Shown: piece after piece, positions 20,507 to 34,643 of the stretch
Position numbering within the stretch: position 1 is the first letter of the stretch
How the letters are laid out: the number at the start of each line of letters is the position of its first letter
Source of the DNA: Desulfobacterales bacterium
GTDB taxonomy: Bacteria; Desulfobacterota; Desulfobacteria; Desulfobacterales; JAIPEE01
Assembly (NCBI GenBank): GCA_021737275.1
Contig: JAIPEE010000039.1
Span: forward strand, 1-34,643
Direction: 5' to 3'
DNA length: 34,643 nucleotides
Program-made: the position numbers and the translations under genes
Notes under the pieces: model-generated
Seen by the model: only the letters and a program-made list of their open reading frames with translations
Told to the model about the DNA's origin: nothing
Database searches by the model: none

Positions 20507-21374
20507 TACACGGCTCCTTTTCACAAAGACTGAGTTTCTTTATTTTTTCTGATAGTGTCAAAAAAATCTGCTTTATCTCCAGGTTGGATTCGGCTATAAT
20601 CCGGCCACGCGAATATGTTTCGGCAATGGCTCTATCAAATGGAATTTCCGCCAAAATCGGCAATTCCGTTTCACGGCAGTATTCATAAACTTTCCGGTCT
20701 CCAACCCCTGCCCGGTTAATAATTACCCCCATGGGCGTGCCCATCTGAACAAAAGCATCCCGCGCCAGTTTTAAATCATACAAACCAAATGGTGTGGGCT
20801 CCGTCACGAGCAAGATAATATCCGTATTCATAACCGCATTTACAGCCGGACAGCTGACACCGGGTGGTGCATCAATAATGATGTCTTTTGATCCACATTC
20901 CGGCATCTTGTCAAGTTGCTTTTTTACCTCACGCATTAATGGCGGGCTCATTGCCTCACCAACTTTTAGCTGCCCCATCAGAAATCCGACCTCGCCTGCA
21001 TGACCCCATTTTACGTCACCCAGTACCCTTGTTCCCTTTTGAATCGCACCCTTCGGACAGACCCGAAAACATCCGCCGCAACCATGACACATTTCAGGAA
21101 ATGTCATAATAACCGGCTCAAAAACACTGATGGCTTTAAACTGACACAACTCCGTACATGCACGACAGTAATTGCATAGCGATTCATCTATAATCGGTAT
21201 TTCAAGACTGGCCGGTTTAATGTCGGTTATTTCAGGTTTCAGAAACAGATGTAAATTGGGTTCCTCTACATCCAGATCCACGGCAATGACCGGTGTTTTC
21301 CAGACCGAAACAAGGGATGCCGAGACAGTTGTCTTGCCGGTACCGCCTTTTCCGCTTGCTACTACAATTTTCAT
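20499..21374 (-). CDS. MinD/Mrp-superfamily P-loop ATPase with 4Fe-4S insertion (first copy)
   Basis: About 291 residues from ATG 21374, which overlaps the stop of the upstream gene as ATGA. Walker A is SGKGGTGKTTV, followed by 'VIAVDLDVEEPNLHLFLKPE', a ferredoxin insertion (CNYCRACTELC and CHGCGGCFRVC) at about residues 66-108, and 'DAPPGVSCPAVNAVMNTDIILLVTEPTPFG'. Paralogue of the next gene, with which it overlaps, so a heterodimer is likely. It is coupled to the DUF134-NifX fusion upstream. Together these suggest an ATP-driven system for loading or moving a metal-sulfur cluster on NifX-like proteins; the cargo is inferred, not seen. Confidence 0.9.
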   Translation of the reverse strand: MKIVVASGKGGTGKTTVSASLVSVWKTPVIAVDLDVEEPNLHLFLKPEITDIKPASLEIPIIDESLCNYCRACTELCQFKAISVFEPVIMTFPEMCHGCGGCFRVCPKGAIQKGTRVLGDVKWGHAGEVGFLMGQLKVGEAMSPPLMREVKKQLDKMPECGSKDIIIDAPPGVSCPAVNAVMNTDIILLVTEPTPFGLYDLKLARDAFVQMGTPMGVIINRAGVGDRKVYEYCRETELPILAEIPFDRAIAETYSRGRIIAESNLEIKQIFLTLSEKIKKLSLCEKEPCNV

Positions 21375-22129
21375 TTCCAATGTCCTGTTTTATTGGGTTG
21401 AGATGCGATACCAACCTTACCTTCAAGATAAAGCGCCACTGCTTCACGGACAGACATATTATGCAGATCTTGTCCCATCTCAATTTTTGCTGCATTTAAT
21501 GCCTGAAAAGCCTTTGGTCCGACATAGCCGGTCAAAACAATTTTAGCACCGGATCTTGCAACAACTTCAGCAGCATTTATACCGGCCCCCTGCGACATGA
21601 CCTGAGTTTCACCATTATCAATATATTCAAAATCCATTGTCTCAGGATCTACAATGATAAAACCTGCTGCCCTGCCAAAACGTTCATCAATCTGACTATC
21701 AAGAGTTGGGCCTGTTGAGCTAACAGCAATTTTTTCCATTTTATAATCTCCTTCTGATTTTATTTTGTTATGCTGATGCGGTTTTTCTGATTCGCCATGA
21801 TTGACAGAATCTTCACTTAATGCATCATCATTTGATTCTTTAACAATATAGTTACCGCCCTCAATCCTTAAGGCCTGCCCACTGGTTACTGCAGTTGCTA
21901 CAGCCTGTCGTGCCTGTGATAAAACACGTCCGAATGTCTGCCGGGAAACATGCATCCGTTCTGCAGCCTCCTCATGCTTCAATCCTTCAACATCCGCAAG
22001 CCGCAAGGCTTCGTAACCTTCAAAAGAGAGGTAGACTTCCGTCAGTTCCAGAAGAGGAAGCCCTCTCGGCTTAAAATAAGTGATGCCCGGCACGGCATCT
22101 ACTTTACAACATATACGAGGTCTTGACAC
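21371..22129 (-). CDS. DUF134 HTH regulator fused to NifX-like domain
   Basis: 252 residues from a GTG start with AAGGAGG five bases before it. The N-terminus (about 1-95) is DUF134: 'SRPRICCKVDAVPGITYFKPRGLPL', 'YEALRLADVEGLKHEEAAERMHVSRQTFGRVLSQARQAVA', a sigma-70-region-4-like HTH. A charged linker (about 98-130) leads to a NifX/MTH1175 domain (about 131-240: 'KIAVSSTGPTLDSQIDERFGRAAGFIIVDPETMDFEYIDNG' and 'IVLTGYVGPKAFQALNAAKIEMGQ'). Usually these are separate genes. The fusion would let metal-cluster or ligand binding control DNA binding. It is the first gene of the long minus-strand run and may autoregulate it. Confidence 0.85.
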   Translation of the reverse strand: MSRPRICCKVDAVPGITYFKPRGLPLLELTEVYLSFEGYEALRLADVEGLKHEEAAERMHVSRQTFGRVLSQARQAVATAVTSGQALRIEGGNYIVKESNDDALSEDSVNHGESEKPHQHNKIKSEGDYKMEKIAVSSTGPTLDSQIDERFGRAAGFIIVDPETMDFEYIDNGETQVMSQGAGINAAEVVARSGAKIVLTGYVGPKAFQALNAAKIEMGQDLHNMSVREAVALYLEGKVGIASQPNKTGHWK

Positions 22130-22277
22130 ATTAGCCTCCTTTTATTTTGAGCATTTGCTCTTTTGTGTTTAAATAGAATAAATACGTCTGTCAAGCTTTT
22201 TATTGGTCATGTGCTCATAATTATTTTTAACAAACCTTAACACTTTAAAATTATAAATAAATCAATTCAATATATCA

Positions 22278-22293
22278 GGCTCCATTGGTGCCA
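22278..22293 (-). promoter_or_regulatory. Possible sigma-54 promoter of the NifX/MinD run
   Basis: The minus strand reads TGGCACCAATGGAGCC: a perfect -24 hexamer and GG-N10-GC spacing, but a poor -12 box (GAGCC for TTGCW). It lies about 150 nt before the GTG of the DUF134-NifX gene. Sigma-54 control of the related orp genes in Desulfovibrio makes it worth testing. No CGYTAC site is nearby. Confidence 0.3.
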
Positions 22294-22306
22294 AATGGAA
22301 TTTTAT

Positions 22307-22355
22307 GGAGATGGGGCGGCCTCGATAGCCGCCCCGGGATAATGGCATTTACCCC
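22307..22355 (-). repeat. Dispersed hairpin repeat, copy 2
   Basis: On the minus strand GGGGTAAATGCCAT is followed by GGGGCGGC (22335-22328) / GCCGCCCC (22320-22313), matching the element at 10369-10416 over nearly its whole length. It lies about 45 nt after the stop of the small Cys-rich gene, so again 3' of a gene in the sense direction. Confidence 0.55.
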
Positions 22356-22398
22356 ATTTTTTATGTTAAAATGGAATTTTTTTGGGTTACTGTCTGTT

Positions 22399-22581
22399 TT
22401 ACCGGCCACTGCCTTTTCCCTGACCCCGAGTCTTACATGACCCCTTGCCGCCCTGACAATTTTTACCGCTATTCATATACCTGCATCCCAAGCGCTCTTG
22501 ACGCTTATCACCGGCACTATAACGATTGCACGTGCCATTGCGTCGATTCTGTTTAGAATTTTGTTGCTTAACATTCTGCAT
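22399..22581 (-). CDS. Small basic Cys-rich protein
   Basis: 60 residues, very rich in Lys, Arg, Asn, Gln and Gly, with cysteines in NGTCNRY, LGCRYM, GKNCQGG and GSCKTRG. I do not recognise a named family; small Gly/Cys-rich proteins are often encoded next to NifX/MTH1175 genes. It is believable because a perfect AAAGGAG lies seven bases before the ATG and a hairpin follows the stop. It sits between the stand-alone DUF134 gene and the DUF134-NifX fusion on the same strand. Metal or nucleic-acid binding is a guess from composition. Confidence 0.55.
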   Translation of the reverse strand: MQNVKQQNSKQNRRNGTCNRYSAGDKRQERLGCRYMNSGKNCQGGKGSCKTRGQGKGSGR

Positions 22582-22699
22582 TTTATTCTCCTTTCCTGAT
22601 AAAATAAAAAAACTACTTATTGTATTCTACCTTATTTTTTTATTATAATTTTATTCATCACAATACTGTATCAAATCATCTTTAGAGGTATCATTTATA

Positions 22700-22996
22700 T
22701 TATTCTGCAATTTTATAGGACCCGCCTTCAATTCTTATCGCCCAACCACTTGAAAGCCCCTTTGCGACAACTTTTCTGGCATCTGCCAGAATTCGTGAAA
22801 ATGTCGGTCTGGAAACATTCATCATCTCTGCAGCCTTATCCTGATCAAGCCCCTCAGCATCTGCCAGCCGTATTGCCTCGAGGCCCTCAACAGGTAAAAT
22901 AACCCCTTTCAAACTGTGCATGGGAATGCCCTGAGGCTTAAAAAAAATAACTGACGGCTCTTGCCCGATACGTCTGAATTTTCTTGGTCTTGGCAT
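22700..22996 (-). CDS. DUF134 family DNA-binding protein
   Basis: 98 residues, a complete stand-alone DUF134 protein: 'MPRPRKFRRIGQEPSVIFFKPQGIPM', 'GLEAIRLADAEGLDQDKAAEMMNVSRPTFSRILADARKVVAKGLSSGWAIRIEGG'. The HTH at about residues 50-85 resembles sigma-70 region 4. It is a paralogue of the N-terminal domain of the fusion at 21371-22129 and likely binds DNA to control the same cluster. AAGGAA precedes the ATG. Role inferred from family and position. Confidence 0.85.
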   Translation of the reverse strand: MPRPRKFRRIGQEPSVIFFKPQGIPMHSLKGVILPVEGLEAIRLADAEGLDQDKAAEMMNVSRPTFSRILADARKVVAKGLSSGWAIRIEGGSYKIAE

Positions 22997-28799: not shown

Positions 28800-29183
28800 A
28801 TGAATAAAATTTTATTGGTTGGTGCAGGTGGTTTTGTTGGTGCGACTTTTCGTTATCTTTTAAGTGGATTTGTCCAGAGATTGTCCGGAAGTATAGATTT
28901 CCCTTACGGGACCCTGGCCGTAAACATCCTTGGCTGTTTCCTGATCGGTATATTCTCTCAGCTGGATGAAGTCCGAAACGTCTTTTCCGCTGAAGTTCGA
29001 TTCTTTTTGTTTATTGGTATTCTGGGTGCATTTACCACCTTCTCTACTTTTGGAAATGAAACCATGAACCTGATTGTAGATAAAAGAATGAATTTTGCTT
29101 TTTTAAATGTCAGCATCCATATCATTCTTGGACTTGGTACCGTGTGGGCCGGCAGATTAATTGCTTATTTTATATGGAGATAA
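28800..29183 (+). CDS. crcB: Fluoride channel CrcB/Fluc
   Basis: 127 residues with four membrane segments. Family motifs are intact: 'GAGGFVGATFRYLLSGF' (helix 1, with the conserved GG and R), 'YGTLAVNILGCFLIGIF' (pore Asn), and 'GILGAFTTFSTFGNET' (the TM3 break with the phenylalanine box and the GxxTTFSTF signature). It forms a dual-topology dimer that exports fluoride from the cytoplasm. It is followed after 3 nt by a DUF190 gene, a common partner. No fluoride riboswitch was recognised upstream. Confidence 0.95.
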   Translation: MNKILLVGAGGFVGATFRYLLSGFVQRLSGSIDFPYGTLAVNILGCFLIGIFSQLDEVRNVFSAEVRFFLFIGILGAFTTFSTFGNETMNLIVDKRMNFAFLNVSIHIILGLGTVWAGRLIAYFIWR

Positions 29184-29186
29184 AAA

Positions 29187-29525
29187 ATGAAAATACCAGA
29201 AGAAGGCCAGCTGCTTCGCATTTTTACCGGTGAAAGTGAGAGGTTTGAAGGCAAGCCTCTATATGAATGGATCGTGATCAAAGCCAAAGAAAAGGGTCTT
29301 GCCGGCGCAACCGTTATTCGCGGCATTATGGGATTCGGTGCCAACAGTCGCATTCATACTACAAAAATACTCCGACTCTCTGAAGATCTGCCGATTATTA
29401 TTGAGCTTGTAGATACACATGAAAAGCTAAAAACGTTTCTTGATTCAATCGACAACGTGATTAGTGAAGGTCTTGCGACACTTGAAAAAGCGCATATCCA
29501 ATTCTATCGCTACAATAAAAAATAA
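29187..29525 (+). CDS. DUF190 family protein
   Basis: 112 residues with a PII-like ferredoxin fold: 'QLLRIFTGESERFEGKPLYEWIVIKAKEKGLAGATVIRGIMGFGANSRIHTTKILRLSEDLPIIIELVDTHEKLKTFLD'. 'ATVxRGxxGFG' and 'LPxxIxxVD' are the DUF190 signatures. It starts 3 nt after crcB with GGAGATAA before the ATG, so the pair is one unit. DUF190 proteins are regularly encoded with CrcB and may act as a small-ligand sensor or regulator of the channel; the precise role is not established. Confidence 0.92.
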   Translation: MKIPEEGQLLRIFTGESERFEGKPLYEWIVIKAKEKGLAGATVIRGIMGFGANSRIHTTKILRLSEDLPIIIELVDTHEKLKTFLDSIDNVISEGLATLEKAHIQFYRYNKK

Positions 29526-29815: not shown

Positions 29816-30343
29816 TTACAATTTACGGTTGTTCTCCAAAATTGTTTGAGAACGCTGATGGCGTTTATTTTCAGCACTTTTCCCTTCGATTCTAATCCGA
29901 CGGTGGGCGTTTATCTCCTTTTTCATCTCTCTGTCCGGCTCTTCAAAAATTATTGCACCGAAATTACATTCCTTAACACATGCCGGATCGCCATCACATA
30001 AATTGCATTTTTTTGCTATTTTTTCAGAATTTAACTCTATCATCCCATAAGGACATTTAGCAACACACTCTCCACATCCCGTACAAAGCTCTTCATCAAC
30101 TGTAACAATACCTGTCGTCTCATCTTTTATAATTGCCTCTTCCGGGCAAGCCTTGAGACAATCCGGGCTTTCGCAATGATAACAAACATTAGGCACAGAA
30201 AACCCATTTAGTGAAAAGTTATGGGTTTTTATTAACGCATTATATGGTGAAAATTTATTGGTTTTTAATGCAGAACACATGTAAGCACACCGATTACATC
30301 CGGTACATAATTCAGGTATAGCAATTAAACATTTCCCATCCAT
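29816..30343 (-). CDS. Four-cluster 4Fe-4S ferredoxin (AOR electron-transfer subunit)
   Basis: 175 residues with sixteen cysteines in four cluster motifs: CTGCNRCAYMC (13-23), CYHCESPDCLKAC, CTGCGECVAKC and CNLCDGDPACVKEC. This is the HycB/DmsB-like layout found in the AorB/ferredoxin partners of aldehyde oxidoreductases. It should carry electrons between the tungsten enzyme encoded just upstream (22-nt gap, same strand) and a quinone, NAD or ferredoxin partner. There is no Tat signal or membrane anchor, so it is cytoplasmic. The C-terminal 30 residues are basic and variable. AGGAGA lies before the ATG. Confidence 0.9.
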   Translation of the reverse strand: MDGKCLIAIPELCTGCNRCAYMCSALKTNKFSPYNALIKTHNFSLNGFSVPNVCYHCESPDCLKACPEEAIIKDETTGIVTVDEELCTGCGECVAKCPYGMIELNSEKIAKKCNLCDGDPACVKECNFGAIIFEEPDREMKKEINAHRRIRIEGKSAENKRHQRSQTILENNRKL

Positions 30344-30364: not shown

Positions 30365-32125
30365 TTAGATTTGATCCAGGCCCAATTCTGCCAGTTTTTC
30401 TTTTGAAGGAATGCCGTTTTCATCCCATCCGCGCATCTCATAAAACATGGCCTTAGCTTTATTAAAGTCTTCATCGCTAAATACATTCCCATCATATGGG
30501 CCCTTCTGGATTGCCTGAGTCATTTTCCTTGGAAGACTATCATCATCTGCAGTCAAACCGGCCTTAAGATTAAACAGGCGTGTAAGATTCCATATCCTTT
30601 CCCCTGCAATTTCCAAATCTTCGGTTTTAATTTCCTCTCCAAGGCCGTTTGACATAATATCCGCTAATATTTCAAGTGTTGAATTTGCCCAAACATCACA
30701 AAGACCGGTTGACCATTTGGCTGTATTAAAATTTTGACCGCCAACAACAGCTTGTGCCATCTTTTCAATATCAAACACCTCTTCTTCAAATGCTGTAAAT
30801 GCACGCATATGGCAAGCACCCCGCTCACTCATGGCATAATTAATACCCATTCCATAGCTGCCACGCGGATCATATGCAGGAAATTCCATACCTTTTACTT
30901 CTGTAGTTAAATCATGAGAGTTGTACTTTTCGGCCATTTGTCTTGAACCTTCAGATAGTATTTTACCTCTCTCAGTTGATAATTGAGCGATTTCAGTAAT
31001 AACTTTTAAATATTCACTAACTTCTCCGAATTTTAAATTAAAATCTTTACGGCCCTTTTCTGCTAAATCCATTGCCAAACCAATAACATTACCGCAAGAA
31101 ATTGTATCAAGGCCGAGGTCATCACATAATCGATTAAAGATAATAATTGTTTCTAGGTCATTTATACCGCAATTTGAGCCACCCAGAACCAGTGTTTCAT
31201 ATTCGGGACCTTCCATTTCAGAACCATTGACATGGGTATATTTTCCACAGGCAAACAGGCAGGTGGCGCAAGCCCTGTCACCTATTTTGAATTTTTTCAT
31301 GGTTTCTGAGTTAATTTTTTCAACATCTTCATTAATGCCATAAGTGAAATTTCTGGTAGGATGGATACCCATTTCACATGTAACATCCATCAACATGGGC
31401 GTACCATCAGTTTTTGCCCAGAGGTTATCTTCGTGCAATACACTTGTATTTTTATAGTTTTCGATCAGGCTCAGGAATGATTTCATATCAGAAACCTTGA
31501 TACTACCTGTGCCTCTGCAAACTATTCCCTTCAAATTCTTACTTCCAAATAATGCACCGCCGCCGCCCCTGCCCATTTGTCGATAGGTTTCTGTTCCGAT
31601 ACAAGCATAAGGAACGCAATTTTCTCCAGCAGGCCCGATTGAAAGTGTTTTTGCTTCATGCGATTCGATTGCTTCTTTAAGTTTGATTTCAGTATTAAAG
31701 ATCCCATCTCCTGCCATATCGGAAGCATCTTCAATAGAGACCTTATTATCATCAATTTTAATGTAAGACAGTTTGGACGCCTTCCCTGTTATGATAATTC
31801 CATCATATCCGGCAAACTTAAGCTCGGGGGCAAACGCACCACCGGTATTAGACTCAAAAACAGTACCTGTCTGTGGAGATTTGGAAATTAAAGCAAATCT
31901 TGCCGACAAGGGCGTGTTTGTACCACCTAAAGGTCCGGTCATAACAACAACTGCATTTTCCGGAGAAAGGGGGTCTACTTCCGGATCCACAAGATCATAA
32001 AAATACCTTAGCCCTAGCCCCCAGCAACCTATATAATCCTTTAGCCATTCCTCTTTAATTGGCTCTGAAGTAATTGTGTTTTTTGTCAGATCAACAAATA
32101 ATATTTTTCCAGCATATAAATTCAT
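30365..32125 (-). CDS. aor: Aldehyde:ferredoxin oxidoreductase (tungsten)
   Basis: 586 residues, normal for the family. The N-terminal domain has 'GKILFVDLTKNTITSEPI', 'GCWGLGLRYFYD' and 'TGPLGGTNTPLSARFALISKSPQTG'; 'GPAGENCVPYACIGTETYRQMGRGGGGALFGSKNLKGIV' lines the tungstopterin site. The cluster motif is CATCLFAC (Cx2Cx3C), with the fourth ligand expected in 'STGLCDVW'. It oxidises aldehydes to carboxylic acids, or the reverse, with ferredoxin. It is followed by its ferredoxin gene and preceded by a small hypothetical gene and the mtt locus. AGGAGGAGAAAA precedes the ATG. The aldehyde substrate cannot be read from sequence. Confidence 0.94.
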   Translation of the reverse strand: MNLYAGKILFVDLTKNTITSEPIKEEWLKDYIGCWGLGLRYFYDLVDPEVDPLSPENAVVVMTGPLGGTNTPLSARFALISKSPQTGTVFESNTGGAFAPELKFAGYDGIIITGKASKLSYIKIDDNKVSIEDASDMAGDGIFNTEIKLKEAIESHEAKTLSIGPAGENCVPYACIGTETYRQMGRGGGGALFGSKNLKGIVCRGTGSIKVSDMKSFLSLIENYKNTSVLHEDNLWAKTDGTPMLMDVTCEMGIHPTRNFTYGINEDVEKINSETMKKFKIGDRACATCLFACGKYTHVNGSEMEGPEYETLVLGGSNCGINDLETIIIFNRLCDDLGLDTISCGNVIGLAMDLAEKGRKDFNLKFGEVSEYLKVITEIAQLSTERGKILSEGSRQMAEKYNSHDLTTEVKGMEFPAYDPRGSYGMGINYAMSERGACHMRAFTAFEEEVFDIEKMAQAVVGGQNFNTAKWSTGLCDVWANSTLEILADIMSNGLGEEIKTEDLEIAGERIWNLTRLFNLKAGLTADDDSLPRKMTQAIQKGPYDGNVFSDEDFNKAKAMFYEMRGWDENGIPSKEKLAELGLDQI

Positions 32126-32730: not shown

Positions 32731-34215
32731 TTAAGCATGAAATTTTGATTTTACACCTAATTCGTCTTCTGCACTGTCAATTATTTCCCTTATTGATTGA
32801 CTTATATTTTCTTCTAAAGGAAGGGGCTTATGCGTCTCCAATAAATTACGGGCTTCTTCAACGGATCGCTGATATATGTCAGTACTACCGGCCTCTTCCC
32901 ATGTCGTTCGTGTTTTACGATCAATCAAATTGGCCTGGGAATTTTGTCTCATATTTTGAAATGTGCTCTTATGGCACAGGAAATCGCTGAATATTCCGAC
33001 TTCATGTATTACATCTACAGATAACGTTTCATCATTTATCGGAATTCCTTGAACTGCATGTTTAATCATGCCGGCGAATTCATTATCCATAACCAATTGA
33101 CCGAAATCGAATGTAATACCCATTTCAAGCATGCCCAAACCATATATTACATTAGCACCTGCTAATGCAGCGAGAAGAGCGGTTAAGGTTTTTTCATGCC
33201 CTGCCTGAGCATCAGATATTTTACCATCGCCCTATCCACCGGCTACAAAACTGGGTAATGCATAAAATTGAGCCAATCGGGCAACAGCGGCGCTTATCTT
33301 GGCACATTCAGGTGAACCAACAGACGCAGCGGCCAATTTCATATCCATTGCCGTAGTTGAGCTGCCGTAAACAACGGGTGTTCCTTTATTGGTTAGTTGC
33401 GCCAGGGTTAATCCTGCCAAAACTTCTGCATTATGTATAACGAGTGTGCCTGCAAGATGAATGGGCGCTGATCCACCGGCCATGGCCATAGACAAAACAT
33501 TAACACCTATTCCTGATTTGGCCGCTTCCATAATTATCTGACAGCATTCAGGTACTAATTTAAGAGGACTGACCGGGCAGGTGAGAAATGTTAACAAAGG
33601 CCTTTCAATTAATTTTTCTTTACTGCCGCAAATTACGGTTAACATTTCAACAATTTTTCTTGCCTGAAATTGATCCAGGGGACCTAAAAAATTATGTTTT
33701 GTTGTATTTATTAATGAAGCTTCTGCATTATGAAGAGCTGAGACTTCGTGAGGTACATCGCTTGACAGCATTGCTCTTTCATATACATCTATATGTTCCA
33801 ATTTATCTACAAGAAGGGCCGCATTCGCGACATCTGACTTATATGTCGGTCTGAGCTCTCCCGTATACGGATCGGTTATAGATATTCCCTCACCAAAATT
33901 TGTAAAACAAACACGGTTTGCTTCCAGAATAACATCTTGTTCCGGTATTCTGCCACAAGCAACAAACTTTGACGGAGTTGATCGTACTGCATCTTCAACT
34001 ACATGTGGCGGTATTTTGACAATTTTTTTATTCTTATCAACATTTGCACCGCCGGCATGGTAAATTTCCAAAGCTTCATCATCTCCGACATAAACACCGG
34101 TTTTAGAAAGTACTTCCAGTGTTGCAAGATGAATATCATTTAAACCATCATCAGATATGGTGTTTAGTCCAAATCCCATATTTTGAACTCTACAGGATTG
34201 TAAATTACGGTTCAT
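32731..34215 (-). CDS. mttB: Trimethylamine:corrinoid methyltransferase MttB with in-frame amber (pyrrolysine) codon
   Basis: 494 residues when TAG at 33232-33234 is read as pyrrolysine (residue 328); archaeal MttB is about 495 with Pyl near 334. Before it the protein reads 'FGLNTISDDGLNDIHLATLEVLSKTGVYV' through 'VARLAQFYALPSFVAGG', after it GDGKISDAQAGHEKTLTALLAALAGANVIYGLGMLEMGITFDF, all one frame and all MttB-like, down to 'EEAGSTDIYQRSVEEARNLLETHKPLPLEENI'. It transfers a methyl group from trimethylamine (or a related quaternary amine) to a corrinoid protein. ATG 34215 is chosen over 34221 because AAAGGA is at proper distance. No pylS, pylT or pylBCD lies in the window, and the neighbouring mttC appears broken. 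Confidence 0.9.
33232..33234 (-). other. In-frame UAG codon, predicted pyrrolysine
   Basis: CTA on the plus strand is TAG in the mttB frame. Flanking residues FVAGG and GDGKISDAQAGHE are contiguous family sequence, so the codon interrupts, rather than ends, the gene. Of the stop codons I checked in the window only two genes end in TAG, consistent with restrained amber use. Confidence 0.85.
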
Positions 34216-34314
34216 ATTCATTTCCTTTCTTTATAAGATCATTTCTGAGTGAAAAATAATAAGAACTTTTTTCATTTTTATACAAAGGTCATACTATTTA
34301 AACACTTTACAAAT

Positions 34315-34643
34315 TTACCCGCCAAGATAGACCTTTTTAATATGATCATCGTTAACCAGGTCTGAACATTTCCCTTCCAGTGCTATCTTGCCGGTTTCAA
34401 AAAGATATCCATAATCAGAGTTTTTCAATGCAATGGACGCATTCTGTTCAACAAGAAGGACGGAGAGTCCCTCATTTTTTAATTCATTTATAATATTGAC
34501 GATCTCATTTACCATCATGGGGGCAAGACCGAGTGACGGTTCATCTAACAGCAGTACTTTGGGGCTCGCCATTAACGCTCTCCCCATTGCAAGCATCTGT
34601 TGCTCACCACCGCTCATGGTACTGGCAATCTGACTTGTTCTTT
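34315..34643 (-). CDS. livF: Branched-chain amino-acid-type ABC transporter ATPase LivF (partial, 5' end beyond window)
   Basis: The C-terminal 108 residues of an ABC ATPase, running off the right end of the window. Visible: RTSQIASTMSGGEQQMLAMGRAL (signature motif), 'PKVLLLDEPSLGLAPMMVNEI' (Walker B and D-loop) and 'GLSVLLVEQNASIAL' (switch region; Gln as in LivF), ending 'GKCSDLVNDDHIKKVYLGG'. 'LAP..V..I...I..L' and the 'YLGG' tail are typical of LivF rather than LivG. It powers uptake of branched-chain amino acids or, in methylamine loci, possibly amines or betaines. It is on the same strand as mttB, about 100 nt ahead of it. The Walker A part is outside the window. Confidence 0.93.
   Translation of the reverse strand, partial: RTSQIASTMSGGEQQMLAMGRALMASPKVLLLDEPSLGLAPMMVNEIVNIINELKNEGLSVLLVEQNASIALKNSDYGYLFETGKIALEGKCSDLVNDDHIKKVYLGG

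Follow-up and report, generated by a model that had tools for sequence, protein, structure and literature searches.

Does a TAG codon in the middle of a methyltransferase gene of an anaerobic bacterium end the protein, or is it read as pyrrolysine (Pyl)? The question is raised by a gene, mttB, near one end of the stretch of DNA analyzed here (the window), which is an entire contig (C17, 34643 bases) of a Desulfobacterota assembly of 4.26 Mb and 104 contigs. An earlier note, made from the letters of the window, had proposed that this gene encodes a Pyl-containing MttB. In this study, the proposal was assessed from the gene itself, its paralogues, the rest of the genome and other genomes of the phylum.

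Results

The reading frame of mttB

The following window features lie on the minus strand.

29816..30343, minus strand: 4Fe-4S ferredoxin-like subunit adjoining the oxidoreductase (PF13247 and others)
30365..32125, minus strand: aldehyde ferredoxin oxidoreductase (PF01314 and PF02730)
32731..34221, minus strand: mttB, predicted trimethylamine:corrinoid methyltransferase with one in-frame TAG (TAG=O translation, TIGR02369, PF06253, PDB 7xcl/7xcm)
33135..33234, minus strand: match to Rfam RF02510 PYLIS_3 (85.8 bits, cut-off 38)
33232..33234, minus strand: TAG codon very probably read as pyrrolysine (aligned to X, Pyl334, of 7xcl; column common to 10 Pyl-type MttB)
34315..34643, minus strand: C-terminal portion of an ABC-transporter ATPase, truncated at the contig end (PF00005)

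From the ATG at 34221, mttB runs for 329 codons to the TAG at 33234-33232 and then for 166 codons to a TAA; read through to 32731 with TAG as pyrrolysine, it would give a product of 496 residues. The in-frame TAG, the 166 MttB codons behind it and the TAA end were as described in the earlier note, which had left the strand unstated and had numbered the Pyl residue 328. This number holds for a start at ATG 34215, and it becomes 330 from ATG 34221. In our reading, a Shine-Dalgarno-like stretch, GAAAGG, suits ATG 34215 at least as well. The whole read-through protein matched PF06253 and scored 724.3 bits against TIGR02369 over profile positions 1-469 of 469; this NCBIfam equivalog model is named for trimethylamine and has a cut-off of 525 bits. 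A full-length match of this kind puts the read-through frame far above chance. The closest solved structure is a trimethylamine methyltransferase (PDB 7xcl and 7xcm), which we take to be the Pyl-MttB of Methanosarcina barkeri. It aligned with residues 16-486, and the TAG fell on Pyl334 of 7xcl, so the claim that Pyl occupies the same place as in methanogen MttB also held.

Upstream of mttB, at a distance of 93 bases and in the same orientation, lies the ATPase, presumably LivF-like. Downstream, likewise in the same orientation, a gap of 605 bases separates mttB from the aldehyde ferredoxin oxidoreductase; a functional link between the two would be hypothetical. Neither MtbB nor a corrinoid gene adjoins mttB, whose neighbors are instead an ABC transporter and an aldehyde oxidoreductase. 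A scan of 19 other window proteins, which represent part of the window ORFs, detected no corrinoid protein. Elsewhere in the window, adjacent CrcB and DUF190 genes (28800-29525) resemble a fluoride-exporter pair, with no fluoride riboswitch in the window at the Rfam threshold, and positions 21371-22996 encode two DUF134 proteins, one of them fused to a dinitrogenase iron-molybdenum cofactor domain.

Paralogues within the genome

The genome contains 36 matches to PF06253: 10 with one TAG, one with a TAA and 25 without a stop. The single TAA belongs to an upstream tandem gene, which it terminates. Three matches are short pieces, and the remaining 33, near full length, were compared. TAG occupied one alignment column in 10 of them, and it was the interrupting codon in all 10, of which two are cut by contig ends (C84 and C86). 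The other 23 carry a sense codon at the Pyl column, as do MtgB-type members of the same family (MtgB acts on glycine betaine). All 10 Pyl-type MttB exceeded the TIGR02369 cut-off, and some share no more than about 45% identity with the window protein. PF09505 (MtbB) gave 12 matches, 11 long genes and a short mtbB-like piece (C55:11430-11657), each with one TAG, while the single PF05369 match has no stop. TAG-bearing MttB and MtbB matches therefore number 22 in the genome, and the TAG pattern spans 13 contigs. A sequencing error at 33232-33234, which the earlier note had considered, is implausible because TAG recurs at the same column in nine other MttB and also interrupts each of the 12 MtbB matches.

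Pyrrolysine genes and the meaning of TAG

The earlier note had tied its reading to the presence of pylS, tRNA-Pyl and pylBCD in the genome, outside the window. A genome search recovered the complete set on another contig, C63. In the stretch of C63 designated L011, the genes lie on one strand in the order tRNA-Pyl(CUA), corrinoid protein, pylSc, pylB, pylC, pylD, pylSn, with a methyl-THF:corrinoid methyltransferase and a second corrinoid protein on the upstream side. The synthetase gene pylS is split into pylSc and pylSn, and all five pyl proteins scored above their NCBIfam equivalog cut-offs.

L011 8833-8759: tRNA-Pyl, anticodon CUA (ARAGORN drawing with a 6-pair anticodon stem)

The pyl cluster and mttB are on different contigs of an assembly with 4.02% estimated contamination. 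The tetranucleotide agreement of the window with seven stretches of the same assembly was high (r 0.88-0.95); this is no bar to mis-binning, because two loci from other genomes scored 0.92 and 0.86.

The genome also encodes RF1. In 296 kb of the genome, 146 long ORFs with normal ends terminated in TAA (86), TGA (40) or TAG (20), and 22 ORFs stayed open for at least 60 codons past a TAG (10 MttB, 11 MtbB and one corrinoid gene); this sample was picked mostly for methyltransferases and says nothing on Pyl genes elsewhere in the genome. Since RF1 is present and ordinary ORFs end in TAG, this organism also uses the codon as a stop. Most likely, TAG has two meanings in this genome, stop and Pyl.

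Three genes of the cluster itself, pylSc, pylB and pylSn, terminate in TAG (L011:3601-7964). Autoregulation through these terminal codons was considered. In the clusters of five relatives, TAG ended one of five pylSc, one of the three pylSn found and none of the four pylB found. The stops were taken as chance because they are not conserved in these relatives.

Association of TAG with PylS across the phylum

A survey of 395 genomes of the same phylum (Desulfobacterota) found PylS in six, in keeping with the earlier remark that the use of Pyl by bacteria, though known, has a patchy distribution. MtbB occurred in exactly these six, and with up to four candidates scored per genome, all 15 MtbB matches listed carried TAG. 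TIGR02369 gave 86 matches from 49 genomes on the same basis of up to four candidates each; 15 carried TAG, all from five of the six PylS genomes, and none of the 67 from the 44 genomes without PylS did. G299, the remaining PylS genome, gave no MttB match. When genome_contigs was scanned with an alignment of PylSc, 308 stretches encoding a relative were identified, and the titles of the best 80 were mostly of Deltaproteobacteria/Desulfobacterota, Bacillota or Aminicenantes.

These results bear on the alternative that mttB is a pseudogene or a split gene, its TAG being either a genuine stop or an error of sequencing. The presence of RF1 and the 20 ordinary ORFs ending in TAG would fit a true stop. 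However, the 166 codons past the TAG are open and conserved, the pattern is common to the other MttB and the MtbB matches, a complete pyl cluster is present, and no TAG-bearing MttB was found in the 44 genomes without PylS. We consider this alternative very improbable.

Probable absence of a local insertion signal

In another reading, a structured PYLIS element 3' of the TAG directs pyrrolysine insertion. The PYLIS_3 match begins exactly at the TAG and lies well above the gathering score, which speaks for such an element. However, the match was not specific for UAG-bearing genes: two sense-codon paralogues, with Ala or Val at the site, also matched (56.6 and 40.5 bits), and for this reason the match does not count as evidence for an insertion signal. 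The 100 bases that follow the TAG folded no more strongly than shuffled sequences (mean z -0.26, 21 genes), against a mean z of -0.15 in 23 sense-codon control genes in which the site was placed approximately. The part of PMC3639795 available to us likewise describes the mttB region as without common structure. The match most likely reflects protein-coding conservation, not a decoding signal. A local PYLIS signal was accordingly rejected as highly unlikely, and no local mRNA signal is apparent in the sequence at the TAG.

A sense-codon clade within Pyl-MttB

The Pyl-MttB rows of a 62-row tree were not monophyletic: inside them lay a group (99/99) of six sense-codon proteins, in which Pyl is replaced by Ala, Val or Met. 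For this tree, 14 of 63 candidate proteins were dropped for a score below 400 and five as duplicates, and eight of the 23 sense-codon MttB of the genome were included. The nested six comprise two proteins from this genome, one each from G279 and G340, and two from named Desulfobacterales/Desulfobacteraceae records. In this genome they are a tandem pair with Ala and Val at the Pyl column (L023:3042-5996; C68:27053 and C68:28553). A 46-row tree omitted 16 rows (three long-branch rows, including one of the six, ten near-copies and three outgroup rows), and in it the grouping of all Pyl rows was rejected (p-AU 0.0084), by a test run after the first tree had been seen. All six nested proteins come from PylS genomes; this link is partly biased, because two of them were fetched as lying near pylS.

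The topology suggests a secondary loss of Pyl. Two gains of Pyl could also explain it, and one loss would be the simplest reading. We regard as evenly balanced the further proposal that one Pyl-MttB branch lost Pyl within Pyl-decoding bacteria and that former trimethylamine enzymes came to act on a substrate for which Pyl is not required. No report of Pyl loss inside the Pyl-MttB clade was found in the titles and abstract openings of the open-access papers that our searches retrieved; the accessible text of PMC13044021 raises pyrrolysine loss by duplication as a possibility.

An MtmB homologue beside pyrimidine-type genes

Contig C8 (L048:3602-9875 and L051:66-4399) encodes an MtmB homologue in which Tyr occupies the Pyl202 position. 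Together with a corrinoid gene, it heads a same-strand run that continues with cytosine deaminase, a PreT-like protein, PreA, an NCS1 permease, a carbamoylase and dihydropyrimidinase. The run suggests demethylation of an N-methylated pyrimidine or a creatinine-derived ring. In 16 stretches from 11 other genomes, no deaminase, PreT, PreA, permease or dihydropyrimidinase was found near MtmB matches, and one stretch (L198) had a carbamoylase-like match. A literature search on a link between MtmB and a pyrimidine operon found nothing. The corrinoid gene before the mtmB-like gene ends in a TAG that lies five codons before the next ATG and in its frame (L048:4247-4264), so suppression of this UAG would yield a corrinoid-methyltransferase fusion; the arrangement may also be due to chance.

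Discussion

The sequences establish the reading frame, the TAG site, a full set of pyl genes, the paralogues and the link between TAG and pylS. From these, we conclude with high confidence that the window gene encodes a Pyl-containing trimethylamine:corrinoid methyltransferase (MttB) of an anaerobic Desulfobacterota bacterium, with UAG decoded by the Pyl system of contig C63. In the mechanism that we propose, PylB, PylC and PylD, encoded in one cluster, would make pyrrolysine, the split synthetase PylSc/PylSn would charge tRNA-Pyl with it, and ribosomes would insert Pyl from Pyl-tRNA(CUA) at the UAG, codon 330 (or 328). Competition by RF1 should give some truncated protein. The substrate would be trimethylamine, and its methyl group would pass through a corrinoid protein and a methyl-THF methyltransferase to one-carbon oxidation.

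It is also conceivable, though unlikely, that the enzyme contains Pyl and acts on another methylated amine. So many Pyl-MttB copies, some of them distant from the window protein, suggest divergence in substrate, and mttB stands beside an ABC transporter and an aldehyde oxidoreductase without MtbB or a corrinoid gene. On the other hand, the protein scored far above the cut-off of an equivalog model named for trimethylamine, and its best solved relative is a trimethylamine methyltransferase. The TIGR02369 score is no proof of substrate, since the two nested sense-codon MttB of this genome also pass the cut-off (577.4 and 584.5 bits). Trimethylamine is retained as the probable substrate.

The M. 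barkeri enzyme differs from the system described here, which has a bacterial host, a split PylS and RF1, and in which the methyl group presumably passes to tetrahydrofolate rather than coenzyme M. Pyl-MttB in Deltaproteobacteria and other bacteria has already been published, and the window gene adds a member. The portions of PMC8318568 and PMC7593587 available to us describe, in marine Deltaproteobacteria and in Bilophila, respectively, a Pyl synthetase, pylBCD, tRNA-Pyl and MttB with in-frame TAG, in broadly the same bacterial group as here. The marine Deltaproteobacteria are described there as having up to five MttB copies per genome, whereas this genome has 10 TAG-bearing MttB and 12 MtbB matches with TAG. 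Like this genome, Bilophila, as presented in that text, combines Pyl-MttB with a synthetase in split form and an MtmB-like gene that lacks TAG; it is described as having no MtbB, in contrast to the 12 matches found here. Candidatus Formimonas warabiya DCMF, in the accessible text of PMC6778437, has 23 Pyl genes among 96 methylamine methyltransferase genes and a similarly large MttB expansion that mixes Pyl and non-Pyl copies. That organism belongs to the Bacillota, while the 22 TAG-bearing matches reported here are from Desulfobacterota.

Standard gene callers end these proteins at the TAG, and trimethylamine use is thereby easily overlooked in annotation. The genome combines in one organism a large Pyl repertoire with TAG as an ordinary stop. 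The nested clade places closely related Pyl and non-Pyl enzymes side by side, which may allow a direct test of why methylamines need pyrrolysine and other substrates do not. If the proposed retargeting is true, the sense-codon branch would amount to a natural experiment on the role of pyrrolysine.
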